From positions 868,001 to 932,000 of the forward strand of contig NZ_JACIDS010000003.1 in NCBI RefSeq assembly GCF_014196455.1: 64,000 bases of DNA, written 5' to 3'. The stretch is from Kaistia hirudinis (GTDB lineage Bacteria; Pseudomonadota; Alphaproteobacteria; Rhizobiales; Kaistiaceae). A program made the position numbers and the translations under genes. The notes under the pieces were generated by a model that was not told the origin of the DNA, made no database searches, and worked only from the letters and a program-made list of their open reading frames with translations. Shown here in pieces: positions 44,588-62,428 of this stretch; the first letter of the stretch is position 1, and the number at the start of each line of letters is the position of its first letter.

Positions 44588-45540
44588 GCCTCGGCCTCGA
44601 TCTGCAGCGTTCCATCGCGTTCGACCAGCGGCAGCGGATCGCTGACGCCGCCGGCAAACGCGCCGTCGTCCTGGATATTGTGGAAGGCGAGCAGGACGGG
44701 TCGTCCGCTCCGATCCGCGATGATGCGTCCGCTATAGAGCGCCTCCGGCGCGATCAGGCGCGCAGCCGCGATGGGGTAGGGGCCCTCCGCCGCATCGGAA
44801 GCGACGCTCCAGATCCCACCCGTCCCGCCGCTTCGGTCACCGGCCAGCTTGGCGCTGTCGCAGGAGAATAGCAGATGCGTCCCGCCGGTGAGCGTCACAA
44901 CCTGCGGCACTTCGAGATGCGCGAAGCCGGCGCCGATGTCGCTCAGGGGCGGCTGGACCTCCCAGCTTTCGAGATCACGCGAGGTGGCGTGGCCGATGAC
45001 GCCGCGGTCGAGTTCGTCACCATGGTTGGCCCGCGCCGTCACCAGCATGTGCCAGGTCTGGCCGTCTGCCGACGGGAACACCCAGGGATCGCGCCAGGCT
45101 TCCTCCGGCCAGGAGGAAGTCCCCAGCGTCTCATACCAGCGCGGATCGGCGCTGCAGATCGGGCCGGGCGCCTTGGTCCAGTGATAGAGGTCGGGCGACG
45201 TCGCGACGCCGACGGTCTCGATATTGGGATGGGCATCCGGCGCGAGGAAGCGCGTGCCGGTATAGAACATCCGCCACAGCCCGTCCGGCCCGCGCACCAC
45301 CGAACCGGTCCAGGTCGCCGTCTCGTCGAAGGCGCCGGCGTCTCCGGCCTCGAAGATGCGGCCGTGAAAGTCCCAGTCGATGAGGTCCGACGACGTGGCA
45401 TGGCCGATCCGGGCGTTGCGATGGCGCAGGTCCGGATTGCCCAACGCGCGCGGCGCATGCAGGAAGTACATGTGGAACAGGGCGCCGTCGTCGGCCAGCC
45501 AGAAATCCCAGACCCAGTGATCGTCGAGCGAGAAGGCCAT
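44584..45540 (-). CDS. GH32/GH68-like five-bladed glycosidase
   Basis: 318-aa protein with the five-bladed beta-propeller pattern of clan GH-J/F enzymes. Candidate catalytic residues are D12 (WVWDFWL), D151 in the RDP motif (AWRDPWVF) and E210 (HLEVPQV). The RDP motif favours GH32-like (fructosidase) activity; GH43-type enzymes are the alternative. No signal peptide, so it would act on imported substrate. A LacI operator is 12 bp before ATG 45540. Confidence 0.75.
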   Translation of the reverse strand: MAFSLDDHWVWDFWLADDGALFHMYFLHAPRALGNPDLRHRNARIGHATSSDLIDWDFHGRIFEAGDAGAFDETATWTGSVVRGPDGLWRMFYTGTRFLAPDAHPNIETVGVATSPDLYHWTKAPGPICSADPRWYETLGTSSWPEEAWRDPWVFPSADGQTWHMLVTARANHGDELDRGVIGHATSRDLESWEVQPPLSDIGAGFAHLEVPQVVTLTGGTHLLFSCDSAKLAGDRSGGTGGIWSVASDAAEGPYPIAAARLIAPEALYSGRIIADRSGRPVLLAFHNIQDDGAFAGGVSDPLPLVERDGTLQIEAEA

Positions 45541-45552
45541 CAGCCACCAATA

Positions 45553-45572
45553 TTGCTAAAAGGATTTAGCAA
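45553..45572. promoter_or_regulatory. LacI-family operator, copy 2
   Basis: TTGCTAAA and TTTAGCAA, perfect 8-bp arms around AGGA. It lies 12 bp upstream of the glycosidase start and 97 bp upstream of the divergent LacI gene, a position that would block transcription of the glycosidase unit. Its core is identical to that at 43361-43380. Confidence 0.75.
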
Positions 45573-45669
45573 ATGATGGCGTGGTCGCTGGTTTGTCAAG
45601 CGCGGGCCCGCTCCGCTATGAGGGGCGGTACGCCGCCTTCGGGTTGCGGGTGCAAAGGGGTGGGTTTTC

Positions 45670-46743
45670 TTGAGCAAGAAGCGCGTCACGCTCGCCGATG
45701 TGGCCCGATTGGCCGGGCTGTCGCCGACGGCCGCGTCGATGATCCTGACGGGCCGGCCCGATACGCGCCTTTCGGCCGAGGCCCATGCCCGCGTCCATGC
45801 CGCCGCGCTGGAACTCGGTTACCGGCCCAATCTCGCGGCGCGCGCGCTGCGCACCGACAAGACGCGGACGATCGCCTTCATTTCCGACGTCGTCGCGACA
45901 ACGCGCTTCGCCAACGGCCTCATTCGCGGCACGCTGGAGGCCGCCGACGCGGCGGGCCATGTCGTGCTCGTGCTGGAGACCGGCGGGGAGCCGGCGCGTG
46001 AGGTTCAGGCGATCGAGGCGGCGCTCGACCGGCAGGTCGACGGCTTCATCTTCGCCGCGATGCGCGCGCGCGAAGTCTTCGTGCCGGCGCTTCCGGCGGC
46101 GACCCGCGTGGTGATGCTGAACGCGACCAGCCGGCATCATCCGGTCTGCATCCTTCCCGACGAGTTCGAGGCCGGCGGCGCGGCCGTGCGTCTGCTGCAC
46201 GACGCCGGCATCCGCGACGGCATCGCGCTCATCGGCCACAATCAGATGGTCGAGCAGGGCCTCTTTCGCTCCGAGACCGTGTCGCGCCGTCTTTCCGGCA
46301 TCCGGACCGAGATGGCCCGCTTCGGCCTCGACTTCGTTGCCGAGGAGAGCTGCTGGAACTGGGAAGCGCGCAATGGCTATGAGCTGGTCTGCGGGCTGCT
46401 CGAGCGCAAGGTGCCGCTGACGGCGCTGCTTTGCCTCAATGACCGACTGGCCTTCGGCGCCTATCAGGCTCTCGGCGAGGCCGGACTGCGCATCCCCGCC
46501 GACATGTCGGTGGTCTCGTTCGACAATGACGAACTCGCCGCCGACCTCCGTCCGGGGCTCACGACCTTCGCCCTGCCGCACGAAGAAATGGGCCGCGAGG
46601 CGGTGCGACTGCTGCTCGCGCCCAAGTCCGAACTCGGCGAACACCTCATCCCGATGACCGCTACGATCCGCCAGTCCATTGCGATTATCGGCGAGGGCAG
46701 GGGTCTCGTGACCGAGATGCCGAGGCCGTCGCGGTCAAACTGA
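45670..46743 (+). CDS. LacI-family transcriptional regulator
   Basis: 357-aa repressor. The HTH (residues 6-28, VTLADVARLAGLSPTAASMIL) is followed by the hinge helix (YRPNLAARALRTDKTRTIAF) and a periplasmic-binding-like sensor domain. The start is TTG 45670; SKKRVTLADVARLAG is the normal beginning of the family. It is divergent from the glycosidase/hydrolase unit and is the obvious binder of the paired TGCTAAA.AGGA sites. Confidence 0.9.
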   Translation: MSKKRVTLADVARLAGLSPTAASMILTGRPDTRLSAEAHARVHAAALELGYRPNLAARALRTDKTRTIAFISDVVATTRFANGLIRGTLEAADAAGHVVLVLETGGEPAREVQAIEAALDRQVDGFIFAAMRAREVFVPALPAATRVVMLNATSRHHPVCILPDEFEAGGAAVRLLHDAGIRDGIALIGHNQMVEQGLFRSETVSRRLSGIRTEMARFGLDFVAEESCWNWEARNGYELVCGLLERKVPLTALLCLNDRLAFGAYQALGEAGLRIPADMSVVSFDNDELAADLRPGLTTFALPHEEMGREAVRLLLAPKSELGEHLIPMTATIRQSIAIIGEGRGLVTEMPRPSRSN

Positions 46744-46762: not shown

Positions 46763-48253
46763 TCATAGAGCGTCGAGGTCGTCGTAGAAGGCCTGCGCGG
46801 CGGTGTAGAGGCGGGCGAAGATCGGCATCATCCGGTCGTAGCGCGCCGTCCAGGCGGGATCGGGCATGATGTCCGGGCCGAAGCGGACCATGTGCGCGAC
46901 GGCGGCGTCGAGATTGGCCGCGCCGCCGACCACGCTGTCCATAAGGATGGCCGCGCCGACGACGCCGCATTCCAGTTCTTCCGGCACGACATAGGGCACG
47001 TCGTAGAGGCTCGCCTTGATCTTGAGCCACAGCGCCGCCTTGGCGCCGCCAGAGGCGGCAACGATCCGTTCGGGCCGCGCATGGCCGCCCTGCAGCGTGT
47101 CGAGCTTCATCCGCACGGAAAAGGCGACGCCTTCGAGCACCGCGCGGTGGAGTTCCGGCAAGCCATGCGCCGCCGAGAGACCGAAGAACTGGGCGCGCGA
47201 ATTGCGATGCGCGCCGAAGCGCTCGCCGGAGAGATAGGGCAGGAAAAACAGGCCCTTGGAACCCGCCTCGGCCCGCTCGGCCTGCGCAGCGACCTCCGCA
47301 TAGGAGAGCGCGTTCTCGTGAAAGGCACGCCTTGCCCAGCGCACGGCGTCGCCGCCCGCATCGAGCAGCGTCATGGCGCCCCAGGTGCCGTCGGCCGAGA
47401 TGACGTTGGACACTTCGGGATCCAGCACCGGCCCGTCATGCAGCAGCGTGATGATCGTGGATGTGCCCGTGACGTCGGAGCCCATGCCGGGGCGCGTGAC
47501 GCCCGAGCCGAGCAGCGCCATCGGATAATCGCCGGCACCGACCAGAACCGGCAAGCCGGAGGAAAGGCCGAGCGCGCCGGCGACATCGGGCAGCAGACCG
47601 CCGAGCACGTCGCCCGGGGCGTGGAGTTCGGGCAGAAGGCGGCGGGGCACACCCGTCAGCGCGAGCAGCTCGTCCGACCATTGCCGGGAGCGCCAGTCCA
47701 TCAGGAAGGAGAGCGAGGCTTCGGTCACGTCCTGGGCGTGACGGCCGGTCAGCTTGAAGTTGATCCAGTCCTTCGGCATCAGCAGCGCGGCCGCGCGCTC
47801 GACGGCGGACGGATCATTCTCCATCAGCCACATCAGCTTGAAGGCGGGCCAGGCGGGAGACGGAAGATTGGCGGCGAGCGGCAGGACGCGTTCGCCCGCG
47901 ACCCGCGCGGCAAAGGCCTCGACCTGCGGGATGGGGCGCTTGTCGTTCCACAGCAGCACCGCTTCGCGCGTGAGTTCGCCCTTCGCATCGACGAGAACCG
48001 AGCCATGCATCTGGCCGCAGGTGCAGATCGCGGCGACGCGGGCCGCGGCGTTGTCGACCCGCTCCAGAACATCCCGAATGCTGGCGATCGTCCCGGTCCA
48101 CCAATCCGCCGGACGCTGCTCCGACCAGCCGAATTGCGGCACGATCTGCTCATGCTCGCGATGGCTGATCGCCAGCACCTTGCCGGCGGTGTCGACCAGC
48201 GCGGCGCGCAGGCCGCCCGTTCCGACGTCGATCGCCAGATAGAGGTCGCGCAT
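46763..48253 (-). CDS. FGGY-family carbohydrate kinase, xylulokinase-like
   Basis: 496-aa sugar kinase with two actin-like domains. Features are the phosphate loop DVGTGGLRA near the N-terminus, CTCGQMHGSVLVD, GAGDYPMALLGSGV and GTSTIITLL, and the C-terminal adenosine loop ASGGAKAALWLKI. Closest to xylulokinase, but FGGY kinases also act on ribulose, fuculose and other sugars. Last gene of the importer operon (TGATG overlap with the ATPase), so it probably phosphorylates the imported sugar. Confidence 0.88.
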   Translation of the reverse strand: MRDLYLAIDVGTGGLRAALVDTAGKVLAISHREHEQIVPQFGWSEQRPADWWTGTIASIRDVLERVDNAAARVAAICTCGQMHGSVLVDAKGELTREAVLLWNDKRPIPQVEAFAARVAGERVLPLAANLPSPAWPAFKLMWLMENDPSAVERAAALLMPKDWINFKLTGRHAQDVTEASLSFLMDWRSRQWSDELLALTGVPRRLLPELHAPGDVLGGLLPDVAGALGLSSGLPVLVGAGDYPMALLGSGVTRPGMGSDVTGTSTIITLLHDGPVLDPEVSNVISADGTWGAMTLLDAGGDAVRWARRAFHENALSYAEVAAQAERAEAGSKGLFFLPYLSGERFGAHRNSRAQFFGLSAAHGLPELHRAVLEGVAFSVRMKLDTLQGGHARPERIVAASGGAKAALWLKIKASLYDVPYVVPEELECGVVGAAILMDSVVGGAANLDAAVAHMVRFGPDIMPDPAWTARYDRMMPIFARLYTAAQAFYDDLDAL

Positions 48254-49314
48254 CAGAGACGCTGCTCCGTCTGCGGATCGAAGAAATGCGCCTGCGTCAT
48301 GTCGATCGGAACCGTGCAGGGAGCGCCCGGCGTCACCGGGAAGCGCGGATCGACCTGCGCCGTGATCTTCTCGCCCGCGAGGCGACCGAGCACCAGCGTG
48401 TGGGGTCCGAGCGGCTCGACGGCTTCGGGGACGAAGCTGAGCGCCGCCTGATGTTCGGAGGCGCGCATATGCTCGGGCCGGATGCCGAAGATGACGCTGC
48501 CGCGCGCGCCGAGACGCGCCGCCTCGTCGGGCGGGAGGCTCAGGACCTGGTCGCCGACGCGCACGGCGCCGTCCGCGATCGTGGCGTTCAGGAAGTTCAT
48601 GGCCGGCGAGCCGATGAAATTGGCGACGAAGCGGTTGGCGGGGCGTTCATACAGCGTGATCGGATCGGCGGCCTGCTCGATCCGGCCGGCGCGCATGACC
48701 ACGACGCGGTCGGCCATGGTCATCGCCTCGACCTGGTCATGCGTCACATAAACCGCCGTGGTGCCGAGGCGGCGCTGCAGCAGCTTGATCTCGGTGCGCA
48801 TCTCGACGCGCAACTTGGCATCGAGGTTGGAGAGCGGCTCGTCGAACAGGAAGACCTGCGGATGGCGCACGAGGGCGCGACCGATCGCGACGCGCTGGCG
48901 CTGGCCGCCGGAAAGATTCTTGGGCTTGCGGTCGAGATAGGGATCGAGGCCGAGAAGCCTGGACGCTTCGGTGACGCGTTCGGCGATCACGGCCTTGTCG
49001 GTGCCATGCACCTTCATCGCGTAGCCGATATTCTCGCGAACGCTCATATGCGGGTAGAGCGCGTAATTCTGAAACACCATGGCGCAATCGCGCTCGCCCG
49101 GCCGGGCATGCGTGACATCGCGGCCATTGATGCGGATCGAGCCGGACGAGGCGCTTTCGAGGCCCGCGAGCATGCGCAGCGTCGTCGTCTTGCCGCAGCC
49201 CGAAGGCCCCACCAGGACCAGGAATTCGCCCTTCTCGATCGCGAGGTCGAGCGGGGGAATGACCGAGGTGGCCCCGAAGGATTTGGTGATCTGGTTCAGC
49301 TCGACATGCGACAT
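48253..49314 (-). CDS. carbohydrate ABC importer ATPase, MalK/UgpC-type
   Basis: 353-aa ATPase with Walker A GPSGCGKTT (about 37-45), signature LSGGQRQR, Walker B LFDEPLSNLDA, and the C-terminal OB-fold regulatory domain (about 240-353). The real start is ATG 49314; codons further upstream run through the hairpin. It is the only MalK-type ATPase in the window, while two other importers here lack one. Confidence 0.92.
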   Translation of the reverse strand: MSHVELNQITKSFGATSVIPPLDLAIEKGEFLVLVGPSGCGKTTTLRMLAGLESASSGSIRINGRDVTHARPGERDCAMVFQNYALYPHMSVRENIGYAMKVHGTDKAVIAERVTEASRLLGLDPYLDRKPKNLSGGQRQRVAIGRALVRHPQVFLFDEPLSNLDAKLRVEMRTEIKLLQRRLGTTAVYVTHDQVEAMTMADRVVVMRAGRIEQAADPITLYERPANRFVANFIGSPAMNFLNATIADGAVRVGDQVLSLPPDEAARLGARGSVIFGIRPEHMRASEHQAALSFVPEAVEPLGPHTLVLGRLAGEKITAQVDPRFPVTPGAPCTVPIDMTQAHFFDPQTEQRL

Positions 49315-49333
49315 GGCTGTCCATCCGGAAAAT

Positions 49334-49361
49334 GCCCTGGCCGGGTGAACCCGGCCAGGGC
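49334..49361 (-). terminator. intercistronic hairpin after the binding-protein gene
   Basis: Perfect 12-bp stem GCCCTGGCCGGG paired with CCCGGCCAGGGC, loop TGAA. It lies between the binding-protein stop (49380) and ATPase start (49314), without a T-run, and probably raises the ratio of binding protein to the downstream products. Confidence 0.65.
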
Positions 49362-49379
49362 GTGGCATGGGAGATCGGC

Positions 49380-50828
49380 TTACTTCAGCGGCGGCAGGCC
49401 CATCGCGGAGCGGTAGGCGGCCAACTGCTTGTCGCGGCCGAACTCGTCCGTGATCTTGTTCCACTCCGCAGCGATGTTATCCAGCGCCGCCTGCGGCTCC
49501 TCCTCGCCGGCGAGCGCCTTGGAAAGCTCGATCTCGAGGACTTCCGTGTAGTTGAAGAAGCCGGGAATGCGCAGGTCGAGCGCGACGTTCGGCGAGTCGA
49601 GCGAAGCCTTCTGAGCGCTCAGATAGCTCTCGGCTTCCTCCTTGGTGAAGATCGACGACCAGTTGTCGATATTGGTGTAGTGGCTGAGACGATAGGGATT
49701 GACGCCGGTATTGGCCGTCACGATCGCCTTGGCCGAGACTTCGGGGCTGGTCGCGACCTGGACGAAGGACCAGGCGGCCGCCTGGTTCTTGCTGTCGGCC
49801 GGAACGGCGAGCTGCCAGCCGCCGAAGGCGAGGAAGGGCGAGGCGACCGGCTTGTCGAACTTGTCCCAGGACTTGGTCTTGTAGTTCCAGATCTCCGTCG
49901 AACCGGGGAGCACCGCCGTGCGGACATTGCCGGCGATGGCGCTCTCGCCCTTGGTCGCGCCGAGCACGCCGGAATCGCCCCAGTCGATGTTCATGGCGAC
50001 CTTGCCGCCGGCATAGAGCGGACGCACGTCGCCCGAGCCATTGTTGAGCGCGCCCGGCGGATTGTAGGCGAGGCCGCGCTTGTAATCCTCGAGGGCCTTA
50101 AGCCAGCCGGGATTGTTGATCTGCGCGTCCATCGTCTCCGGATCGAAGAACATCGAGCCCGGATTCTTGGGATTGTTGGTGTAGCTGGCGGCGTGGCTGA
50201 AGAAATACCAGAACTGCTGGCCGCTACGCTTATAGGCCTCGGCCGTGCCATAGAGCCCCTTGGCCGGATCGGTGAAGAAGGCGGCCACGTCGTAATATTG
50301 CGGCCAGGTCGTCGGCGCGGCGAGGTCGTAGCCGTACTTCTTCTTGAAGGCTTCCTTGTTGGCGGCGTCCTCGAACAGATCGGCGCGGTAGTTCAGCAGA
50401 TGCATGTCGCCATCCATCGTCGCCGACTTGATCTCGCCGTCCCACATCATCAGCCGTTCGCGATAGACCGGATGGATGTCATCCCAGGCCGGGCCCTTCT
50501 GCATCTCGGCCGGCATAGTCGAAAGATAGGGTGCGAAGTCCGGGACCCAGGCCGGGATGAAGCCGATGACGTCGAAGTCGCCGGTCTGCTGCGACATGGC
50601 GGTCAGGAACTTCGGATAGAGCTCGCTGAACGGGAACTCGACGATGTTGACCTTGCCGCAGGTCTTCTCTTCCCAGACCTTCGCGGCATCCTTCAGCGCC
50701 GAGGCGATGAACGGGCCGTTCTGGGTCGAGACGGACAGGGTCACGCCGGAATAATCGGGCGAGCAGGCGGCATTGGCCGCGCCCGCGACCGAAAGCAGCG
50801 CGACGGCGGATAGCAGGATACTCTTCAT
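49380..50828 (-). CDS. extracellular sugar-binding protein (ABC importer)
   Basis: 482-aa SBP_bac-type protein with a signal peptide (1-20, VAGAANA-ACS). The large size and motifs such as GFIPAWVPDFAPYL, NIDWGDSGVLGA and FAFGGWQLAVPADSKNQ resemble sugar and polyol binders. It lies downstream of both permeases and upstream of the ATPase, separated from the latter by a strong hairpin. Confidence 0.87.
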   Translation of the reverse strand: MKSILLSAVALLSVAGAANAACSPDYSGVTLSVSTQNGPFIASALKDAAKVWEEKTCGKVNIVEFPFSELYPKFLTAMSQQTGDFDVIGFIPAWVPDFAPYLSTMPAEMQKGPAWDDIHPVYRERLMMWDGEIKSATMDGDMHLLNYRADLFEDAANKEAFKKKYGYDLAAPTTWPQYYDVAAFFTDPAKGLYGTAEAYKRSGQQFWYFFSHAASYTNNPKNPGSMFFDPETMDAQINNPGWLKALEDYKRGLAYNPPGALNNGSGDVRPLYAGGKVAMNIDWGDSGVLGATKGESAIAGNVRTAVLPGSTEIWNYKTKSWDKFDKPVASPFLAFGGWQLAVPADSKNQAAAWSFVQVATSPEVSAKAIVTANTGVNPYRLSHYTNIDNWSSIFTKEEAESYLSAQKASLDSPNVALDLRIPGFFNYTEVLEIELSKALAGEEEPQAALDNIAAEWNKITDEFGRDKQLAAYRSAMGLPPLK

Positions 50829-50847
50829 TCCATTCCTCCCTTGAAGA

Positions 50848-51864
50848 CTACTTTATCGAACCGGAGAGCAGGCCCGAGCGCATCATCCGGCCGAGAATGG
50901 CCGCGACGACGATCATCGGGACGATCGAGATGAGCGTGGCGACCGAGATCGCCCACCACTCGTCCCCGCGGCTGGAATTCTGGCCGGCCAGCAGGATCGG
51001 CAGCGTCTGCCACTTCGACGAGGTGAGCAGCAGCGCGAACAGGAACTCGTTCCAGATGAAGGCGAGCACGATCATCGCGGTCGCCACGAGGCCGGGCTTG
51101 GCCATGGGCAGCACGATCTGGAAGAAGATGCGCATGCGGCCGATATCATCGACCTGCGCCGCCTCCTCGACCTCGATCGGAACGGTCTGGAAGAAGTCGC
51201 GCATCAGCCAGATCGCGAAGGGCAGGCCGAAGGCGGTATAGGCGAGGACGAGGCCCGGAAAGCTGTCGAGCAGGCGTAGCCCGACCTTGTTGCTCTCCGA
51301 ATAGAGCAGGAAGATCGCGAAGGCCGAGACGATCGGCGGGAACATGCGCTGCGAGACGAACCAGAAGGTGACGTCCTGGTTGGTCATCACCGGGCCCGGC
51401 AGCGGCAGGCGGTTGGCGAGGATCGCGACCGGCAGGCCGACGACGAGGACGATGACCAGCGCATAGGGAACGCGCATCCCGTAGACAGACGTCAGCAGGA
51501 TGAAGCCGCCGATGGCGACGATGCCGAAGATGACGCCGGACAGCAGGCGGACGCGGAACTCGAACCGCACCAGCGCATAGGCCGCCATGGATCCGAGGAA
51601 GACCGAGAGCGCCGTCGCCGTGATCGACACATAGACGGAGCTCAGGATCGGGTTCAGGAAATCGCCGCGCTGGCCGGAGAAGGCGTCGCGAAACGCCTGC
51701 AGCGTCGGCTGGAAATCGATGAACGGCAGGTAGGTGGCGCCCTGGCTCACCGCGAGCGGCGGCTTGAAGGCGGTGACGAACACCCACCAGAGCGGGAACA
51801 GGCACAGGAAGAGCCAGAACAGGCTGAAGAACAGTCCGAGGGCCCGATAGCTGCGGTTTTCCAT
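50848..51864 (-). CDS. carbohydrate ABC importer permease, MalG-type
   Basis: About 338-aa inner-membrane protein with six helices and a periplasmic loop. The EAA loop reads PIEVEEAAQVDDIGRMRIFF. Start is ATG 51864 (TGATG overlap with the upstream permease) or a GTG one codon earlier. Partner of the MalF-type protein at 51864-52751. Confidence 0.88.
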   Translation of the reverse strand: MENRSYRALGLFFSLFWLFLCLFPLWWVFVTAFKPPLAVSQGATYLPFIDFQPTLQAFRDAFSGQRGDFLNPILSSVYVSITATALSVFLGSMAAYALVRFEFRVRLLSGVIFGIVAIGGFILLTSVYGMRVPYALVIVLVVGLPVAILANRLPLPGPVMTNQDVTFWFVSQRMFPPIVSAFAIFLLYSESNKVGLRLLDSFPGLVLAYTAFGLPFAIWLMRDFFQTVPIEVEEAAQVDDIGRMRIFFQIVLPMAKPGLVATAMIVLAFIWNEFLFALLLTSSKWQTLPILLAGQNSSRGDEWWAISVATLISIVPMIVVAAILGRMMRSGLLSGSIK

Positions 51865-52751
51865 CACGCATACTTCCGGGTCAGGCGTTGCGCCGCAGCG
51901 AGATAGACGGTGCCGAAGAGGATGATGACGACGAGGAAGACGAAGCTCAGCGCCGAGGTCATGCCGATGTTGAACTTCTTGAAGCCCTCATTATAGGCGT
52001 AGAGCGTCACGGTTTCGGTCGATGTACCCGGACCGCCGCCCGTCAGCACGAACACCGTGTCGATGATCTTGAACCCCTCGATCAGGCGGATGAACACGAC
52101 GGCGACGGACAGCGGCAGCAGCATCGGGAAGGTGATGTCGCGAAAGCGCCGCCAGGCCGGGATGTTGTCGACGCGCGCCGCCTCGAAGACTTCGGCCGGC
52201 AATCCCTGCAGCCCGGCCAGCATCAGCAGGACGACGAAGGGCGTCCACTGCCAGACCTCGATCGTGACGAGGACGGCGAGGGCGAGCTTGGGCTGCGTCA
52301 GGAAGGGGATGTTGGGTGCGCCGAGGAACGTGAAGAGGTCGTTCACCGGGCCGACCACCGGATGGAAGATCATGCGCGCGATCAGCGCGACGCAGACCGG
52401 CGCCAGGAACATCGGTAGCAGGAAGGTAACGCGATAGAGCGCGGCGCCCGGCACATTGTGGTGCAGCGCCAACGCCAGCGCGAAGCCGATCACATATTGC
52501 AGCGCGACCGAGGCGAAGACGATGATCGCGGTGGTCCAGACCGATCCCCAGAACCGCGCCGAAACGAGAACATCGGCGTAGTTGCTGACGCCGACGAAGC
52601 GGGGCGGCGTCGGCGGCACCAGACGCATGGTCTGGAAGCTGACCGAGAGCGCGTAGATCAGCGGAAACAGCGAGATCAGGAGGACGATCAGGAAGGCAGG
52701 CCAGAGAAAGGCATGCTTGATCCGATCCTGACTGTGAGCGGCAGCGTTCAT
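51864..52751 (-). CDS. carbohydrate ABC importer permease, MalF-type
   Basis: 295-aa inner-membrane protein with six helices and the EAA loop AEVFEAARVDNIPAWRRFRDI. First gene of the five-gene importer/kinase operon on the minus strand (ends at 46763). Its promoter region, 52752-52987, is shared with the divergent sugar-catabolic operon and contains two dyads. Confidence 0.88.
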   Translation of the reverse strand: MNAAAHSQDRIKHAFLWPAFLIVLLISLFPLIYALSVSFQTMRLVPPTPPRFVGVSNYADVLVSARFWGSVWTTAIIVFASVALQYVIGFALALALHHNVPGAALYRVTFLLPMFLAPVCVALIARMIFHPVVGPVNDLFTFLGAPNIPFLTQPKLALAVLVTIEVWQWTPFVVLLMLAGLQGLPAEVFEAARVDNIPAWRRFRDITFPMLLPLSVAVVFIRLIEGFKIIDTVFVLTGGGPGTSTETVTLYAYNEGFKKFNIGMTSALSFVFLVVIILFGTVYLAAAQRLTRKYA

Positions 52752-52809
52752 CCGGTCCCTCCTCCTCAGGCCAACTTGCCCGATCGCCGGAGAGTCTGCA
52801 ACTCTTTTT

Positions 52810-52824
52810 GGTAGCTTAACTACC
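52810..52824. promoter_or_regulatory. dyad GGTAG-CTTAA-CTACC between the two sugar operons
   Basis: 5-bp perfect arms in an A/T-rich patch 59 bp before the importer start. Location and symmetry suggest an operator for the divergent transporter and catabolic operons. The RpiR protein (56990-57868) is the nearest candidate binder. Confidence 0.45.
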
Positions 52825-52844
52825 GATTATTTTACTATTGCAAC

Positions 52845-52861
52845 GCAGCAAGGATTGCTGC
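52845..52861. promoter_or_regulatory. dyad GCAGCAA-GGA-TTGCTGC
   Basis: Perfect 7-bp arms around GGA in the divergent spacer, about 126 bp before ATG 52988. It may be a second operator, or a small hairpin in the leader mRNA of the catabolic operon. Confidence 0.4.
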
Positions 52862-52987
52862 AGGGCGTCATTCCGGCCGAATTGGCCGATAATCGGCGTG
52901 CCTCACGCCAGCGGCGTCGAGCTTCCGAACTTTTCTTATTGCATTCCATCGCCGAAAATGTAGTTTTTATACGGATTGGAGGACCCC

Positions 52988-53608
52988 ATGCTCATTTCCC
53001 CCAGCGCGCACCGCATCGATCCGGCCAGCGGCGCCCTGTCGAACGCGACCGGGCGCTACGAGAAGCGGCTCGCCGAGCTCGACGGCATCTATGCCGACGC
53101 CGAGGCCTTTGCCGCGGCCGTCGCCACGGGCGGCGCGCGCGTCGTCTATCATGTCCATGAAGTTCGCCCGCAGGCCGCCCATGGCGATCTGATCTTCGGC
53201 ACCACCTTCATGGAGCCGGGCCGGATCGGCGACGAGTATTTCGTTACGCGCGGCCACATCCACGCCCGCGCCAATCGCCCCGAGACCTATTACGGCGAAT
53301 CGGGCGAGGGCCTGATGCTGATGGAATCGCCGCAGGGCGAAACGCAAATCCTCGCCATCGCGCCGAAGGTGCTCGTCTATGTGCCGCCGCTGTGGATCCA
53401 CCGTTCGGTGAATACGGGCGCCGCGCCGCTGGTGATGAGCTTCTGCTACCCCGCCGATTCCGGACAGGACTACGACGTCATTGCCCGCTCGGGCGGCATG
53501 GCGACGCGCGTCGTCGCCGACGGCACCGGCTGGAAGGCCGTGCCGAATGCCGCTTACCGGCCGCGCAGCCAGGCCGAGATCGAAACCATCCTCGCCACGC
53601 AGGACTAG
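52988..53608 (+). CDS. cupin-type glucose-6-phosphate isomerase-like protein
   Basis: 206-aa cupin of the archaeal-type phosphoglucose isomerase family (GPI, PF06560-like). Metal ligands are H90, H92, E99 (RGHIHARANRPETYYGESGEG) and H138 (PPLWIHRSVN). It interconverts an aldose and ketose phosphate in characterised members; cupin relatives also isomerise modified hexoses. GGAGGA precedes ATG 52988. First of six genes on the plus strand, divergent from the importer and kinase operon. Confidence 0.85.
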   Translation: MLISPSAHRIDPASGALSNATGRYEKRLAELDGIYADAEAFAAAVATGGARVVYHVHEVRPQAAHGDLIFGTTFMEPGRIGDEYFVTRGHIHARANRPETYYGESGEGLMLMESPQGETQILAIAPKVLVYVPPLWIHRSVNTGAAPLVMSFCYPADSGQDYDVIARSGGMATRVVADGTGWKAVPNAAYRPRSQAEIETILATQD

Positions 53609-53617
53609 CCGCACGAC

Positions 53618-54265
53618 ATGTCCATCTTCGATGAGCTTTCCACGCACGCGATCGTCCCGGTGATCGCGCTCGACGATGCGGCCGCCGCCCTGCCGCTCGC
53701 CGATGCCCTGATCGAGGGCGGGTTGCCGGTCGCCGAGATCACCTTTCGCACCGGCGCGGCGCGCGCCACGATCGAGGCGATCGCCAAGGCGCGGCCCGAG
53801 CTTCTCGTTGGCGCGGGGACCGTTTTGGACGAGGCGCAGGTCGATGCCGCGCTGGATGCCGGCGCCCGCTTCGCCCTCTCGCCGGGGCTCGATACCGCCG
53901 TGCTGGCGCATGCGGCCGCCTGCGGCCTGCCCTTCGCGCCGGGCATCATGACGCCTACCGACCTGCAGGCCGCGCTGCGGGCCGGCTGCCGCATGGTCAA
54001 GTTCTTCCCGGCAATGCCGGCCGGCGGGCCGAACATGCTGAAGAATATCGCCGCGCCCTATGCCCATACCGGCATCCGCTTCAATCCGACCGGCGGCGTC
54101 ACGCTCGACAATCTCGGCGACTGGCTGGCGCTCAAGGAGGTCGCGGCGGTGGGCGGCACCTGGATCGCCACCCGCGCCGACATCGCCGCAGGCAATTTCG
54201 CCAAGATCGCCGCCAATGCGCGTGCGGCGGTCGCCCGCGTCGCGGAACTGAGGGCCAAGCCGTGA
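53618..54265 (+). CDS. eda: 2-dehydro-3-deoxy-phosphogluconate (KDPG) aldolase family
   Basis: 215-aa class-I aldolase. The Schiff-base lysine is K128 in MVKFFPA, and E40 in AEITFRT is the general acid/base position. The enzyme cleaves a 2-keto-3-deoxy-6-phospho sugar acid to pyruvate and a phosphorylated aldehyde. KDPGal aldolase is the close alternative. No phosphogluconate dehydratase is encoded nearby, so the substrate source is open. It starts 9 bp after the cupin gene and overlaps the next by GTGA. Confidence 0.9.
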   Translation: MSIFDELSTHAIVPVIALDDAAAALPLADALIEGGLPVAEITFRTGAARATIEAIAKARPELLVGAGTVLDEAQVDAALDAGARFALSPGLDTAVLAHAAACGLPFAPGIMTPTDLQAALRAGCRMVKFFPAMPAGGPNMLKNIAAPYAHTGIRFNPTGGVTLDNLGDWLALKEVAAVGGTWIATRADIAAGNFAKIAANARAAVARVAELRAKP

Positions 54266-55227
54266 CCGGAGCCGTGACCTACGCGCCCGCCACGCGGCCG
54301 ACCTTCTATTTCATCGGCGTCACCACGGCGAAATCCTCGATCATGCGGGTGTTCCCCGAGTGGGCTGGTCATCTCGGCCTCGGCGATGTCGAGATCAAGG
54401 GGATCGATTTCGTGCCGCATGACCGGCCCGAGCGCTATCGCGAGGCCGTCGCCTTCATCAAGGCGGATCCGCTGTCGCGTGGCGCGCTGGTGACGACGCA
54501 CAAGCTCGACCTGTTCGACGCCTGCCGCGATCTCTTCGACGAGATCGACACCCACGCGCGGCTGATGGCCGAGACGAGCTGCCTTTCGAAGCGCGGCGAC
54601 CGCCTGATCTGCCATGCCAAGGACCCGATCTCCTCGGGCCTGTCCATCGACGGCTTCCTGCCGCCCGGCCATTTCGCGCAGACGGGCGCGGAACTCTTCT
54701 CCATGGGCGCGGGCGGATCGACCATCGCCATCACTTGGCATCTGATGCAGGCGAAGCGCGGCGCCGACCGCCCCTCGCGTATCATCGTCTCCAACCGCTC
54801 GCAGCCGCGGCTCGACCATATCCGCGCGATCCACGACGAGCTCGGCACGGATATCCCGGTCGAATACCGGCTCGCACCGGAGGCCGGCGACAATGACACC
54901 ATCCTCGCCGCGCTGAAGCCCGGCAGCCTCGTTGTCAACGCGACCGGTCTCGGCAAGGACGCGCCGGGCTCGCCGCTGACCGACGCCGCATCCTTCCCCG
55001 AGCGCGCCGTCGTGTGGGAGCTGAACTATCGCGGCGACCTCATCTTCCTCGGCCAGGCCCGCGCCCAGCAGGCGGTGAAAGGGCTGCAGGTCAAGGATGG
55101 CTGGACCTATTTCATCCATGGCTGGACGCAGGTGATCGCCGAAGTCTTCGATATCGCCATCCCGACCTCCGGACCCGCCTTCGACGAGATCGCGGCGATC
55201 GCCGCGCGCGTGACCGGGAGGGGCTGA
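54262..55227 (+). CDS. shikimate-dehydrogenase-like protein
   Basis: 321-aa protein with the two-domain fold of shikimate/quinate dehydrogenases. The catalytic lysine position is K81 in VTTHKLDLFD; the Rossmann loop is GAGGSTIAITWHL; NATGLGKDAPGSPL matches the family. It is longer than typical AroE (about 270 aa) and has no aromatic-biosynthesis neighbours, so it is unlikely to be the housekeeping enzyme. It may reduce or oxidise a sugar-derived ring or linear polyol. GTG start overlaps eda by GTGA. Confidence 0.78.
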   Translation: MTGAVTYAPATRPTFYFIGVTTAKSSIMRVFPEWAGHLGLGDVEIKGIDFVPHDRPERYREAVAFIKADPLSRGALVTTHKLDLFDACRDLFDEIDTHARLMAETSCLSKRGDRLICHAKDPISSGLSIDGFLPPGHFAQTGAELFSMGAGGSTIAITWHLMQAKRGADRPSRIIVSNRSQPRLDHIRAIHDELGTDIPVEYRLAPEAGDNDTILAALKPGSLVVNATGLGKDAPGSPLTDAASFPERAVVWELNYRGDLIFLGQARAQQAVKGLQVKDGWTYFIHGWTQVIAEVFDIAIPTSGPAFDEIAAIAARVTGRG

Positions 55228-56162
55228 TGCGGCGCATCCTGATCACGCCGCGCTCGCTCTCGCAGGGCGGCCATCCGGCGCTCCGCTCGCTCGAGACGGC
55301 CGGCTTCGAACTCGTCATGCCGGCGCCGGGCGCCATTCCCGACGAGGCGACGCTGATCGCCGCCTTGCCGGGCTGCGTCGGCTGGCTTGCCGGCGTCGAG
55401 CCGGTCAGCGAACGGGTGATCGATGCGGCCGACCGGCTGCGCGTCATCAGCCGCAATGGCACGGGCGTCGACAATCTGCCGCTCGACGTCCTGGAAGCGC
55501 GCGGCATCGAGCTTCGCCGCGCCGTCGGCACCAATGCGCGCGGCGTCGCCGAACTCGCGCTGACGCTGACGCTGGCGGGCCTCCGCCAGATCGTCTGGAC
55601 GCATGAAGGCATGCGCCGGGGCGCGTGGCCGCGCCGCCTCGGGCGCGAGATCGCGGATGCGCGTGTCGGCGTGATCGGCCTCGGGGCGATCGGTGCCACC
55701 TTCGCGCAACTTTGCCTCGATCTTGGCGCGCGCGTCGTCGGCTATGACCCCTTTGCCAATGCCGATCGCATCGTCCATCCGAATTTCAGTCGCACCGGCC
55801 TCGATGAGGCGATCGGCGGCGTGGACGCCATCAGCCTGCATGCCCCGCTGCCGGAGGACGGCCGTCCCCTGCTGACGGCGGAGCGCATCGCGGGCCTGAC
55901 GCGCGGCTGCGTCGTGGTCAATACGGCCCGCGCCGGGCTCGTCGATGCCGATGCCATGCTGGCGGCGCTGGAGCGCGGACAGGTCGGCACCTATGCGACC
56001 GACGTGTTCGAGGCTGAGCCGCCGGAAGCGGAGCCGCTCTTCGCCCATCCGCGCGTCGTGCTCACCAGCCATATCGGCGGCTTTACGGACGCCTCGGTCG
56101 AGCGCTCGACGGTGCGGGCGGTGGAGAACCTTCTGGAGGCGCTGGCGGTTCATGCGCATTGA
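55227..56162 (+). CDS. D-isomer-specific 2-hydroxyacid dehydrogenase
   Basis: 311-aa NAD-dependent enzyme like 3-phosphoglycerate or glyoxylate/hydroxypyruvate reductase. Nucleotide loop is GLGAIG (151-156); catalytic residues are R235 (NTARAGLVD), the glutamate in DVFEAEPPE and H282 (TSHIGG). ATG 55227 overlaps the preceding stop by TGATG with GGGAGGGG upstream. Could process the pyruvate-family or hydroxyacid product of the pathway. Confidence 0.87.
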   Translation: MRRILITPRSLSQGGHPALRSLETAGFELVMPAPGAIPDEATLIAALPGCVGWLAGVEPVSERVIDAADRLRVISRNGTGVDNLPLDVLEARGIELRRAVGTNARGVAELALTLTLAGLRQIVWTHEGMRRGAWPRRLGREIADARVGVIGLGAIGATFAQLCLDLGARVVGYDPFANADRIVHPNFSRTGLDEAIGGVDAISLHAPLPEDGRPLLTAERIAGLTRGCVVVNTARAGLVDADAMLAALERGQVGTYATDVFEAEPPEAEPLFAHPRVVLTSHIGGFTDASVERSTVRAVENLLEALAVHAH

Positions 56163-57033
56163 GCGCTTCGCAGGGCTGCCCGAGCCGGGACGGCCGGGCC
56201 TCTCCTGGCTCGGTCAGGCCGGCTTCTGGATCGAGACGGGCGACCATCGGATCCTGATCGATCCCTATCTCTCCGACAGCCTCGCGCTCAAATATGCCGG
56301 CAAGCTGAACGACCATCGCCGGATGATGCCGCCGCCGATCCGTCCGGAGGACTTGCCTGAACCCGATCTCGTGCTCGTCACCCATGCCCATGGCGATCAT
56401 ATGGATGCCGGCACGCTCGCCCCGCTCGCCGCACGCTTTCCGAAGCTTCGTTTCGTCGTTCCGGCCGCGAAGCGCGACCTGGCGCGCGAGCGGATCGGCG
56501 CCGCGGCCGAACTCGTCGCCGTCGATGCGGGCGAGACGCTGGAGCCGCTGCCCGGCCTTACAATCCGCGTCTTCGCCGCGGCGCACGAGACGCTGGAGCG
56601 CGATGCGTCCGGCCGACATCTCTTTCTCGGCTACGGGATCCGGTCGCCACGGTTCTGCGTCTATCACTCCGGAGACACCGTTCCGTATCCGGGTCTCGAT
56701 GAGGCGGTGCGCGACTTCGCGCCGGACGTTGTGCTCCTCCCCGTCAATGGGCGCGACGCGCACCGCCTCGCCAACGGCATTCCCGGCAATCTGACGCTTC
56801 ACGAAGCCATCACACTGGCGCGCAAAGCGGATTCGCCCTACCTCGTGCCGCACCATTTCGGTATGTTCGCGTTCAATACGCTGGACGAGGCGGACATCGA
56901 CGCCGCCGCTCTCTCGGCGCTGCGGCCTGTCATCCTCAAGCCCAAGGTGGGTGAAACCTTGAGCTTCGATGCGGCGGAAGGCGGGACCCATGGATCAGAT
57001 CGCGACGACCGAACTCGACGACAATCTCCTTGA
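56152..57033 (+). CDS. metallo-beta-lactamase-fold hydrolase, UlaG-like
   Basis: 293-aa cytoplasmic MBL-fold protein with HAHGDH (H78, H80, D82, H83) and further metal ligands in YHSGDT and PHHFG. The early SWLGQAGFWIET and DPYLSDSL are like UlaG, the L-ascorbate-6-phosphate lactonase, so hydrolysis of a phospho-lactone is suggested. It overlaps the previous gene by 11 bp and the RpiR gene by 44 bp. Confidence 0.8.
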   Translation: MRIERFAGLPEPGRPGLSWLGQAGFWIETGDHRILIDPYLSDSLALKYAGKLNDHRRMMPPPIRPEDLPEPDLVLVTHAHGDHMDAGTLAPLAARFPKLRFVVPAAKRDLARERIGAAAELVAVDAGETLEPLPGLTIRVFAAAHETLERDASGRHLFLGYGIRSPRFCVYHSGDTVPYPGLDEAVRDFAPDVVLLPVNGRDAHRLANGIPGNLTLHEAITLARKADSPYLVPHHFGMFAFNTLDEADIDAAALSALRPVILKPKVGETLSFDAAEGGTHGSDRDDRTRRQSP

Positions 57034-57868
57034 GGTCATCAATCGCAGCCTGCCGACGCTGCGCAAATCCGATCGCCGCGTGGCCGAGGCGGTCCTCGCC
57101 GACCCCAATGCTTCCGTCGACATGACGCTGGCGCAACTTGCCAAGGCCGCCGGCGTCAGCGAGCCGACCGTGCTGCGCTTTGCGAGCGCGATCGGCTGCG
57201 ACGGCTTCCGCGACATGCGCATCAAGCTGGCGCGCTCGCTGGTCTTCGCCCGCACCACCTCGCATTCGGCCATCTCGACCGAGGACGAGCTGACGTCGAT
57301 CATCGGCAAGATCTTCGATTTCAACCTCGCCAATCTCAATTGGGTCCGCAGCCGCCTCGATCCCGTCGCGATCGGCGAAGGCGTCGCCGCGATGGTGAAG
57401 GCGAGCCGGATCGAGTTCTTCGGGCTCGGCGCCTCGGCCATCGTCGCCCTCGATGCCCAGCAGAAATTTCCCCTCTTCGGCGTGCCCTGCGGCGCCCATA
57501 GCGACGGCCACCAGATGTTCATGGTGGCCTCGCTGCTGCAGAAGGGCGATGTCGCGGTCGGCATCTCCAATCGCGGCCAGACGCGCGAGGTCATCCAGGC
57601 GCTGCGCTTTGCCCGCGAGAAGGGCGCGACGACCATCGGCATCACCGGCTGCGAGAGCCCGATGCTGCGCTATTGCGACATCCGCATCGTCGCCGAGACG
57701 CTGGAAAACACCGATCTCTACACCCCGACGATCTCGCGGCTCTCCGCCATGGTGGTGATCGATATCCTGTCGACGGCCGTCAGCCTGGCGCGCGGCGAGG
57801 GTCATCGCGAGCGCGTCGCCGACATGAAGCGCCACCTCGCCGAGGTGCGCATGAGCGGCCACTACTGA
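56990..57868 (+). CDS. RpiR/HexR-family transcriptional regulator
   Basis: 292-aa regulator with an N-terminal HTH-6 domain (about 10-85, MTLAQLAKAAGVSEPTVLRFASAIGCDGFRD) and a SIS phosphosugar-binding domain (about 110-255, FFGLGASAIVALD, ISNRGQTREVI). HexR relatives sense KDPG and control Entner-Doudoroff genes, which fits the KDPG aldolase in the same operon. ATG 56990 lies inside the MBL gene. Last gene of the operon. Confidence 0.88.
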   Translation: MDQIATTELDDNLLEVINRSLPTLRKSDRRVAEAVLADPNASVDMTLAQLAKAAGVSEPTVLRFASAIGCDGFRDMRIKLARSLVFARTTSHSAISTEDELTSIIGKIFDFNLANLNWVRSRLDPVAIGEGVAAMVKASRIEFFGLGASAIVALDAQQKFPLFGVPCGAHSDGHQMFMVASLLQKGDVAVGISNRGQTREVIQALRFAREKGATTIGITGCESPMLRYCDIRIVAETLENTDLYTPTISRLSAMVVIDILSTAVSLARGEGHRERVADMKRHLAEVRMSGHY

Positions 57869-57900: not shown

Positions 57901-58100
57901 CTGCATGCAAGTCGGCTCCCCACCGGCGCACCGTCAGGCCGACAATCCGCTCTCGCGCTCTCGCGTTCTCCAGGAAAGCCCTCGCCGTTCCATGAATGGA
58001 GCGGCCGCGCGCCCTGAAGACAAAATTATCTTTGTGAAATCAGTGGTTTGTAACTGATATGCGGCGCCCGGATACGCCGAAGAGTTGTAGATGCATGCCG

Positions 58101-58140
58101 TGCAAATCCATTTGCAAATCCATTTGCAAATGGATTTGCA
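58101..58140. promoter_or_regulatory. LacI-family operator array
   Basis: TGCAAATCCATT occurs twice in tandem (from 58101 and 58113). The last 28 bp (58113-58140) form a perfect palindrome whose half is TGCAAATCCATTTG. It ends 20 bp before the LacI ATG at 58160 and probably mediates autorepression of the whole operon. Confidence 0.75.
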
Positions 58141-58159
58141 GAGCGCTATCGGTAGAAGC

Positions 58160-59164
58160 ATGAGCACGATTTCAAAGGTTGCCGAGCGAGCTGGGGTGTC
58201 ACGGACGACGGTGTCGCACGTGCTCAATCACGCGGATCGCGTCTCCAAGCCGCTGCGCGACAAGGTCATGGCTGCCGTCGAGGAACTGGGCTATGCGCCA
58301 AACCCGCAGGCGCGGTCGCTGCGCACCGGGCGCACGAACCTCATTGCCGTCCTGATCCCTGATATTCTCAACCCGTTCTATGTGAAGCTCGTCCAGGTCA
58401 TCCAGACCGAGCTCGAGAAGGCCGGGCTGGAGACCATGATCTTCAACACCGACGTGCCGGGCGGGCGGTCGGTCGAACATGGCCGGGAATATCTGCGCCA
58501 GATCAGCCCGAAGCGTTTCGACGGCATCCTGATCGCCGATTTCGCCGTGCACCGGATGCATGAGGATCTCGAGCGACTGACCATTCCTGCCGTGTTCATC
58601 GGCCAGTTGCCGAGCCAGGTCATCGACAGCGTCGGGATCGATGATGCCGGCGGCGCCTATCTCATGGGGAAGTATCTGGCCGAGGCGGGGCATCGCCGCG
58701 TGGCGCAGATCACCGGTCCTTCCTTCTTCGATCAGGCCGTCATCCGCCGCACCGCCTTCGACGAAGGCTTCGGCCAGCATGGCGGCATCGTCGACACGAC
58801 GCTTCACTATGAAGGCAGCTATCTCACGCCTTCGGGCTATGAGGGCGTCGAATGGCTGCTGCGCGAGCATGGCGGCAACCTCCCCGACGCGATCTTCTTT
58901 TCCAGCTCGCTGATGGCCCAGGGCGGGCTCGCCGCGCTCTATGACCACAAGCTGAGGATCCCCGACGACATCGCCGTCGCCTCCTTCGGCGGGTGGGAGC
59001 ATTTCGACTATTTCCGCCCCCGCGTGACCCGCGTCGGCAACGACCCCGCGCTGCTCGCGACGCGCTCCGTCGCCATGCTGCTCGACCGGGTCGAGGGCCG
59101 CGTCGACGGCACGCCGCGCAACGAGATCCTGCCCTGCATCCTCCGGCAATTCGATACCGCCTGA
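58160..59164 (+). CDS. LacI-family transcriptional regulator
   Basis: 334-aa repressor. HTH STISKVAERAGVSRTTVSHVLN (residues 2-23), hinge NPQARSLRTGRTNLIAVLIPD, then the sensor domain. The frame extends through the operator to 58091, but that part is encoded by the palindrome and ATG 58160 is the normal family start. First gene of an operon with a sugar importer and a GH172 enzyme. Confidence 0.9.
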   Translation: MSTISKVAERAGVSRTTVSHVLNHADRVSKPLRDKVMAAVEELGYAPNPQARSLRTGRTNLIAVLIPDILNPFYVKLVQVIQTELEKAGLETMIFNTDVPGGRSVEHGREYLRQISPKRFDGILIADFAVHRMHEDLERLTIPAVFIGQLPSQVIDSVGIDDAGGAYLMGKYLAEAGHRRVAQITGPSFFDQAVIRRTAFDEGFGQHGGIVDTTLHYEGSYLTPSGYEGVEWLLREHGGNLPDAIFFSSSLMAQGGLAALYDHKLRIPDDIAVASFGGWEHFDYFRPRVTRVGNDPALLATRSVAMLLDRVEGRVDGTPRNEILPCILRQFDTA

Positions 59165-59263
59165 TGCAGGCGGAATGCGGCGGGCGATGCGCCCGCCACC
59201 CAGTAGGCAAACCAAGAAACCAAGCAAGAAACGCAAGCAATCAACAACGCTTCCGAGGAAAAC

Positions 59264-62386: not shown

Positions 62387-62406
62387 ATCCGCCTCAAGTA
62401 AATCCG
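62377..62406 (+). repeat. 15-bp exact tandem duplication over a stop codon
   Basis: CCTCAAGTAAATCCG occurs twice head to tail (62377-62391, 62392-62406). The first copy contains the TAA stop of the permease and the second lies just after it. This looks like a replication-slippage duplication with no effect on the protein. Confidence 0.85.
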
Positions 62407-62428
62407 GCCCATAACAACGGATCCTCAT

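Follow-up and report, generated by a model that had tools for sequence, protein, structure and literature searches.

A conserved gene set around a shikimate-dehydrogenase-like protein in Kaistia hirudinis: a possible route for a hexose-sized sugar alcohol or ketose

Introduction

What is broken down by a gene set that joins a sugar importer and kinase to a cupin isomerase, an aldolase and a protein resembling shikimate dehydrogenase (SDH)? The question is raised by a locus of Kaistia hirudinis in the window analysed here, a stretch of 64,000 nucleotides (C3:868001-932000) within the 5.26-Mb genome. Eleven intact open reading frames (ORFs) form two divergent units. Five genes on the minus strand (46763-52751) encode a kinase and the ATPase, binding protein and two permeases of an ATP-binding cassette (ABC) importer, and six genes on the plus strand (52976-57868) encode an isomerase, an aldolase, the SDH-like protein (AroEL), a D-2-hydroxyacid dehydrogenase (D2HDH), a hydrolase and an RpiR-family regulator. 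An earlier note on this DNA had described a complete ABC importer and an FGGY kinase facing a six-enzyme operon. The importer, the kinase and the facing operon were confirmed, and the gene families named there matched our family searches, but the operon proved to hold five enzymes and one regulator.

The note had also not recognised the set as a described pathway. This agreed with our literature search, which found no matching paper in the open-access literature, a scope that is no proof of absence. The hamamelose pathway was tried as a known match and dropped, no paper in the open-access literature combining its terms. We conclude that the locus is a real, conserved catabolic regulon, undescribed in the open-access literature searched, and we give about an even chance to the narrower claim that its substrate is a hexose-sized, acyclic sugar alcohol or ketose, broken down by the steps proposed below.

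Results

AroEL was used to scan 84,980 species genomes (one per species), which gave at least 279 stretches with relatives, and the best 80 were kept. Neighbours were counted in these loci (L002-L081) by tblastn (E ≤1e-15, at least 40% of the query, no more than 4.5 kb from AroEL), with the kinase counted anywhere in the fetched locus and the Kaistia locus (L001) left out of the layouts. The isomerase accompanied AroEL in 76 of the 80 loci, the hydrolase in 74, D2HDH in 61, the regulator in 56, the aldolase in 51 and an FGGY-class kinase in 65; for the 66 loci with at least 8 kb on each side the numbers were 64, 65, 53, 50, 44 and 59. The survey that the earlier note had proposed thus found the set recurring, and the return of the same neighbours in 80 loci that were fetched separately makes the association more than chance. 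The loci came from alpha- and betaproteobacteria (Rhizobiales, Rhodobacterales, Acetobacteraceae, Inquilinus, Burkholderiaceae and Rhodocyclaceae), and the gene set was found in soil, plant-associated and marine bacteria. AroEL is rare: of 289 genomes from the class, 6 had it (the Kaistia genome counted), and of 398 from the phylum, 5 had it, two of them as weak partial matches.

The units are separated by a 224-bp region, common to both, which holds two operator-like sites. Together with the recurring neighbours, this region supports the earlier suggestion of one functional unit. Several plus-strand genes abut or overlap, as expected for a single operon. The most likely starts of the ABC ATPase, D2HDH and hydrolase genes are 49314, 55227 and 56152, which were preferred because the longer listed ORFs overlap neighbouring genes. 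The isomerase ORF starts with TTG (52976), and an in-frame ATG lies at 52988.

AroEL (54262-55227, plus strand) is an NAD(P) oxidoreductase with the SDH fold, and Pfam has no model for its family. No Pfam model matched it at E 1e-3, and the NCBIfam SDH models gave low scores (41.3 bits where the cut-off is 413, and 23.5 against 200.2 for the curated model TIGR00507), which places AroEL outside AroE. The true AroE of this genome lies elsewhere, as the one match above the TIGR00507 cut-off (C3:35381-36160). The AlphaFold model of AroEL was good (mean predicted local distance difference test, pLDDT, 93), and its best Foldseek matches were shikimate dehydrogenases (probability 1.00, template-modelling (TM) score 0.71), with 5-ketofructose reductase (7cok), an SDH-fold enzyme acting on a sugar, also matched. 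Of 94 AroEL rows, 93 kept Lys81 and Asp121, the catalytic pair of SDH, and with them an added Lys120 and Arg257; only the distant L086 differed. Thus AroEL shares the fold and the Lys/Asp pair with the SDH superfamily, 5-ketofructose reductase included, and belongs to it, while it differs from the known members in lacking a Pfam match, in its identity of only ~16-22% to the structural matches and in its substrate-end motifs. The earlier term "shikimate-dehydrogenase-like" is right for the fold, with no counterpart in the Pfam search and a weak one in the NCBIfam scores.

Judged from sequence and model, AroEL very likely functions as an oxidoreductase whose substrate is other than shikimate and probably anionic, and its neighbours suggest an aldose phosphate. 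According to the partial text of PMC7954740 (2021), of two SDH-like proteins only one reduces 5-ketofructose, so the label by itself says little. A second SDH-type gene (L091:1755-2561; TIGR00507 138 bits, below the cut-off of 200) was seen near a diverged cluster.

D2HDH (55227-56162, plus strand; PF02826 and PF00389) is nearest to 3-phosphoglycerate dehydrogenases, enzymes acting on a phosphorylated D-2-hydroxyacid. A GlcD-like flavin (FAD) gene was found nearby in 13 of the 19 loci without D2HDH, compared with 4 of the 61 with it. On the AroEL tree (93 rows, L086 omitted) the GlcD-only state arose twice, in Burkholderiaceae and in Paracoccus (L003), and D2HDH changed at least six times. Fisher tests (1.4e-7 and 1.7e-11) ignore relatedness and were not relied on, the GlcD-only state needing just two changes on the tree. 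The GlcD-like protein scored 253.6 bits with the glycolate-oxidase model, far under the cut-off of 567.9, and was therefore read only as a D-2-hydroxyacid dehydrogenase, which replaces D2HDH in two lineages. Enzymes of this kind oxidise, and the step would turn a D-2-hydroxyacid into a 2-oxo acid.

The KDPG (2-keto-3-deoxy-6-phosphogluconate)-type class I aldolase (53618-54265, plus strand; PF01081) scored 225 bits with TIGR01182, above the cut-off. The KDPG-aldolase (Eda) active site, with its catalytic Lys, Glu and Arg and the PTGG motif, is kept: nine positions were conserved in 58 of 58 rows, and at the tenth 56 rows had Thr and two had Ser. The cluster aldolase was only 41-45% identical to four KDPG aldolases outside the locus (from this genome and three others). 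Aldolase and D2HDH occurred together in 51 of the 80 loci, D2HDH alone in 10, the aldolase alone in none and neither in 19. It is as if the aldolase used the product of D2HDH, given this strict co-occurrence, and D2HDH is most likely the source of the 2-oxo acid on which the aldolase acts.

Nine full-flank loci had D2HDH and no aldolase. The gap at the aldolase site was 18-86 bp in L008, L027, L036, L044, L055 and L079, and 273-311 bp in L010, L011 and L073, with a partial aldolase match in L073. The remnant-sized gaps of these last three loci are probably due to decay of the aldolase gene. A KDPG aldolase above cut-off was found elsewhere in all eight genomes tested of these nine, and likewise in 27 of the 28 genomes tested in all, every one of which had edd.

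The isomerase (52976-53608, plus strand) matched PF06560 with 178.4 bits against a threshold of 20.7 and kept the metal-ligand motif GHxH..E..H, which places it in the cupin phosphoglucose isomerase (PGI) family; the nearest PDB chains were the cupin PGIs 1j3p and 1x7n. The UlaG-like hydrolase (56152-57033, plus strand; PF12706 and PF13483) has the metallo-beta-lactamase fold, with HxHxDH and further metal-site motifs conserved. It is a probable lactonase, assigned to the superfamily only, as its score with the curated L-ascorbate-6-phosphate lactonase model (UlaG) was 25.6 bits against 306. At L091:14464-15807 the cluster hydrolase was fused to a domain resembling low-molecular-weight phosphotyrosine phosphatase, and the diverged L091 cluster also carried GlpK, GatD-like, epimerase-like and inositol-monophosphatase-like genes.

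The kinase (46763-48253, minus strand, 496 aa; PF00370 and PF02782) is a xylulokinase-like FGGY sugar/polyol kinase. Its best NCBIfam model was XylB at 330.1 bits, below the cut-off of 380.25 and thus short of assignment as xylulokinase, and its best PDB match was E. coli xylulose kinase (2itm). The importer comprises an ATPase of the MalK/UgpC class (48253-49314; UgpC-type NF008653, 480.4 bits, above cut-off), a solute-binding protein (SBP; 49380-50828; PF01547) and two permeases (50848-51867 and 51864-52751; both PF00528), all encoded on the minus strand. The SBP is distantly related to polyol binders, the nearest PDB chains being 5iai and 4rya ('Sorbitol') with just 50 and 41 bits. Its AlphaFold model was poor (pLDDT 58), and Foldseek matches with TM ~0.3 were not used as evidence. 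Among the 80 loci, the importer was of this window type in 16 and of a ribose type in 44, with both in two. The ribose-type binding protein (rSBP) is a close relative of PDB 4ry9 (393 bits), which was reportedly solved with D-talitol, a full hexitol.

The rhizobial versions add short-chain dehydrogenases/reductases (SDRs), a GldA-like enzyme and a haloacid dehalogenase (HAD) family phosphatase, and HAD and GldA-like genes were present in 33 and 38 of the 80 loci, respectively. One rhizobial enzyme, SDRa, was nearest to the putative polyol dehydrogenase 3awd and the galactitol dehydrogenase 2wdz. A DkgA-like aldo-keto reductase was found in 7 loci, each with the window-type importer, and in L022 a mannitol-dehydrogenase family gene adjoined the kinase. 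The importers and front ends point to a sugar alcohol or ketose, and to no single compound. A DeoC aldolase and a second XylB-like kinase were added in 8 of the 80 loci (e.g., L088:15645-17943); in L002 and L005 this second kinase was the sole FGGY kinase found.

Of 87 regions upstream of the isomerase, 21 contained the exact dyad GTAGT-N3-ACTAC, compared with a maximum of 3 for any dyad in 20 shuffles. In 55 of 87 loci the palindrome TGTAGTnnnACTACA, with at most two mismatches to TGTAGTNNNACTACA, was present in the 400 bp preceding the isomerase gene. These upstream stretches held 77 of the 121 motif sites in 1.75 Mb, while a single shuffle gave 23 sites in total. Further sites preceded SDRa (7), the RpiR gene (8), the aldolase/kinase gap (4), rSBP (4) and DeoC (3). 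The whole window had 7 matches with three mismatches (shuffles averaged 1.85, maximum 5), and the sites between the units were GGTAGCTTAACTACC (52810-52824) and TGTAGTTTTTATACG (52959-52973), the latter immediately 5' of the isomerase gene. The RpiR-family regulator (56990-57868, plus strand) scored 243.8 bits with the curated HexR model PRK11302, below the cut-off of 296; of the earlier label "HexR/RpiR", the RpiR family and the likeness to HexR hold, and membership of HexR does not. HexR senses KDPG. The RpiR protein may sense a phosphorylated intermediate and would control both divergent operons through TGTAGTnnnACTACA-like sites.

A reduced relative of the AroEL regulon seems to lie on S. 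meliloti pSymB (L107:8989-14624; L108), at pgiA2, taken as SMb20857. Its cupin isomerase was 54% identical and had the same Gln at the position discussed below, its ribose-type importer was 62-64% identical to that of L087, and operator-like sites lay at -199 and -43 from the isomerase match; in contrast, AroEL, the aldolase, D2HDH and the hydrolase gave no match in the stretches searched. The name pgiA2 appears in the partial text of PMC10433430, according to which a mutant in the separate gene pgi had no measurable PGI activity, so that pgiA2 did not substitute for pgi there.

The DNA adjoining the operon (58091-63559) encodes a LacI regulator, a DUF2961 protein, of a family that includes GH172-kind glycosidases, and a sugar ABC importer, of which the SBP and permease were checked. 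Just past the kinase, what may be a distinct locus for glycosides (43421-46743) encodes a LacI regulator together with beta-lactamase-family and GH32-like proteins.

Discussion

We infer the individual reactions, their order and the substrate as follows. The ABC system would import the substrate, with polyol-type importers varying among loci. The FGGY kinase would make a ketose 6-phosphate, or a phosphate later becoming one, and the cupin isomerase would convert the ketose to an aldose 6-phosphate. AroEL, in the role of glucose-6-phosphate dehydrogenase, would then make a phospho-lactone, to be opened by the UlaG-like hydrolase. D2HDH, or the FAD enzyme replacing it, would oxidise C2, and the KDPG-type aldolase would split the resulting 2-oxo acid into glyceraldehyde 3-phosphate (G3P) and a three-carbon keto acid. 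The succession of steps in the earlier note, from phosphorylation through isomerisation, oxidation and opening of the lactone to aldol cleavage, is still the best. The note had no step for D2HDH, which is conserved like the rest (61 of 80 loci, with a GlcD-like gene in 13 of the other 19), and the scheme was therefore amended with a second oxidation.

As in the Entner-Doudoroff pathway (zwf, pgl, edd, eda), a sugar 6-phosphate would be turned into a lactone, which is opened and cut by a KDPG-type aldolase, and a HexR-like regulator is present. The locus differs in having neither Zwf nor Edd, and an SDH-fold dehydrogenase and a second oxidation would replace the dehydration. The genome's edd (C6:175799-177601), two zwf genes (C6:177677 and C3:806229) and other eda copies all lie outside the locus, in agreement with the earlier view that this is not the ordinary Entner-Doudoroff route. 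Moreover, when 94 of the 205 distinct unlabelled flanking ORFs were scanned (25 of 103 Pfam families listed), 14 Pfam families matched at least two of the 94, and none of these families was a dehydratase. Rhizobial and rhodobacterial polyol loci of the smo/mtlK/xylB type have the polyol-type ABC importer and FGGY kinase in common with this locus, and the HAD phosphatase and SDRs with its kin. According to the partial text of PMC10433430, however, they end at fructose or xylulose phosphate, whereas five more enzymes are present here.

The Entner-Doudoroff pathway makes one oxidation, one dehydration and a cleavage to pyruvate and G3P; the proposed route has two dehydrogenases and no dehydratase. 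It would thus yield pyruvate only from a sugar deoxygenated at C3, and hydroxypyruvate from a normal hexose. By mass balance, a 3-deoxyhexose (C6H12O5) gives C6H10O6 after lactone hydrolysis, which is KDPG, and then pyruvate and G3P, while a hexose gives a 2-oxo-aldonate and then hydroxypyruvate and G3P. The first option needs an unusual sugar and no new enzyme chemistry, and the second an unusual aldolase reaction. The ordinary active site of the aldolase favours the 3-deoxy sugar, while the relationship of rSBP and the epimerase-like genes of L091 and L092 favour an ordinary hexitol.

A 3-deoxyhexulose, or the corresponding polyol, is a candidate substrate that we regard as doubtful, if serious; one example is 3-deoxyfructose, which forms when 3-deoxyglucosone, a product of glycation, is reduced. 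The route would run from 3-deoxyfructose-6-phosphate through 3-deoxyglucose-6-phosphate, 3-deoxy-6-phosphogluconolactone and 3-deoxy-6-phosphogluconate to KDPG, and so to pyruvate and G3P. Here two oxidations without dehydration balance to pyruvate and glyceraldehyde, which they do not for a hexose, and the KDPG-aldolase active site is kept in all 58 rows. The HexR-like regulator would suit a pathway through KDPG, and enzymes such as the DkgA-like one of 7 loci reduce dicarbonyls. The aldolase-less loci, with a KDPG aldolase elsewhere in 8 of 8 genomes and a remnant in L073, look as if the housekeeping enzyme sufficed, although edd in all 28 genomes tested means that such an aldolase is present regardless. 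The two epimerase-like genes of the diverged L091 and L092 would make no sense for a 3-deoxy sugar, the kinship of rSBP to 4ry9 (reported ligand D-talitol) speaks for another substrate, and none of the papers found describes growth of bacteria on 3-deoxyfructose. A dedicated pathway for 3-deoxyhexoses (3-deoxyfructose, 3-deoxyglucosone) that reaches KDPG without a dehydratase, with AroEL as a new kind of sugar-6-phosphate dehydrogenase, is a tentative idea, and on the unlikely side. An ordinary hexitol or hexulose (D-altritol/D-talitol or allitol; D-psicose or D-tagatose), whose 2-oxo-aldonate 6-phosphate would be split to hydroxypyruvate and G3P, is improbable but well worth weighing. It would account for the rSBP of 44 loci, close to 4ry9 (393 bits; reported ligand D-talitol), for SDRa, which is preceded by operator-like sites and nearest to polyol and galactitol dehydrogenases, for the weak relationship of the window SBP to polyol-named chains and for the mannitol-dehydrogenase family gene of L022. 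However, the cluster aldolase has an ordinary active site, and release of hydroxypyruvate is not known for KDPG aldolases. No hydroxypyruvate-isomerase or glycerate-kinase family was among the listed Pfam families matching at least two of the 94 flanking ORFs, and the known routes for D-altritol, psicose and tagatose need only an epimerase.

AroEL and D2HDH might instead be an oxidation/reduction pair that alters stereochemistry, with ordinary 6-phosphogluconate or fructose-6-phosphate feeding the housekeeping pathway. The presence of Edd in 28 of 28 genomes and of Eda above cut-off in 27 would fit this, as would the frequent absence of the cluster aldolase and the resemblance of D2HDH to reductases as well as dehydrogenases. 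It is distinctly unlikely, since the FAD enzyme replacing D2HDH is of the glycolate/D-lactate-dehydrogenase kind, hardly able to reduce sugar acids, and since the aldolase depends strictly on D2HDH (0 of 80 loci without it). We see still less likelihood in a five-carbon version, in which a pentitol or pentulose would give glycolaldehyde phosphate, removed by the HAD phosphatase and the GldA-like enzyme: the kinase is nearest to xylulokinase and these two genes are frequent (33 and 38 of 80 loci), but the isomerase and aldolase families belong to six-carbon 6-phosphates, rSBP is close kin of 4ry9 and the window operon has no HAD gene. That the importer/kinase unit and the enzyme operon are just separate neighbours is hardly credible; the importer type does vary (window-type in 16 and ribose-type in 44 of 80 loci), yet an FGGY-class kinase is present in 65 and the control region with its operator-like sites is common to both.

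Several points count against our preferred route for a hexose-sized sugar alcohol or ketose. The oxidation of a sugar phosphate at C1 by AroEL is a step that we infer. His158 and Tyr152 are the proton-transfer residues of P. furiosus PGI in the partial text of PMC6627849; the isomerase keeps the Tyr152 equivalent, but at the position of His158 only L091 and L092, among 85 rows, have His and the other 83 have Gln. Because Gln replaces this residue, the isomerase may, by its sequence, be other than a plain PGI. The change was rejected as a marker of AroEL linkage, S. meliloti pgiA2 having Gln without AroEL and L091 and L092 having His with it. The two operator-like sites of the control region are weak, with three mismatches each to TGTAGTNNNACTACA, and a genome-wide regulon search by motif failed in the Kaistia genome, where the motif was not enriched: it matched 27 places with at most two mismatches, while the reversed control matched 195. 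Furthermore, some of the 80 loci were incomplete: neither D2HDH nor GlcD was nearby in 6, the hydrolase was missing from 6 and the isomerase from 4, and 15 had no kinase in the fetched stretch; several of these are short contigs.

AroEL proteins are deposited as 'shikimate dehydrogenase', and an established function would correct this label. It would also give a well-studied fold a role in sugar-phosphate metabolism, and bacteria of soil, root and sea a pathway. 3-Deoxyfructose and 3-deoxyglucosone are main by-products of glucose glycation, and if the sugar is indeed 3-deoxygenated, a biological sink for glycation products would be named.

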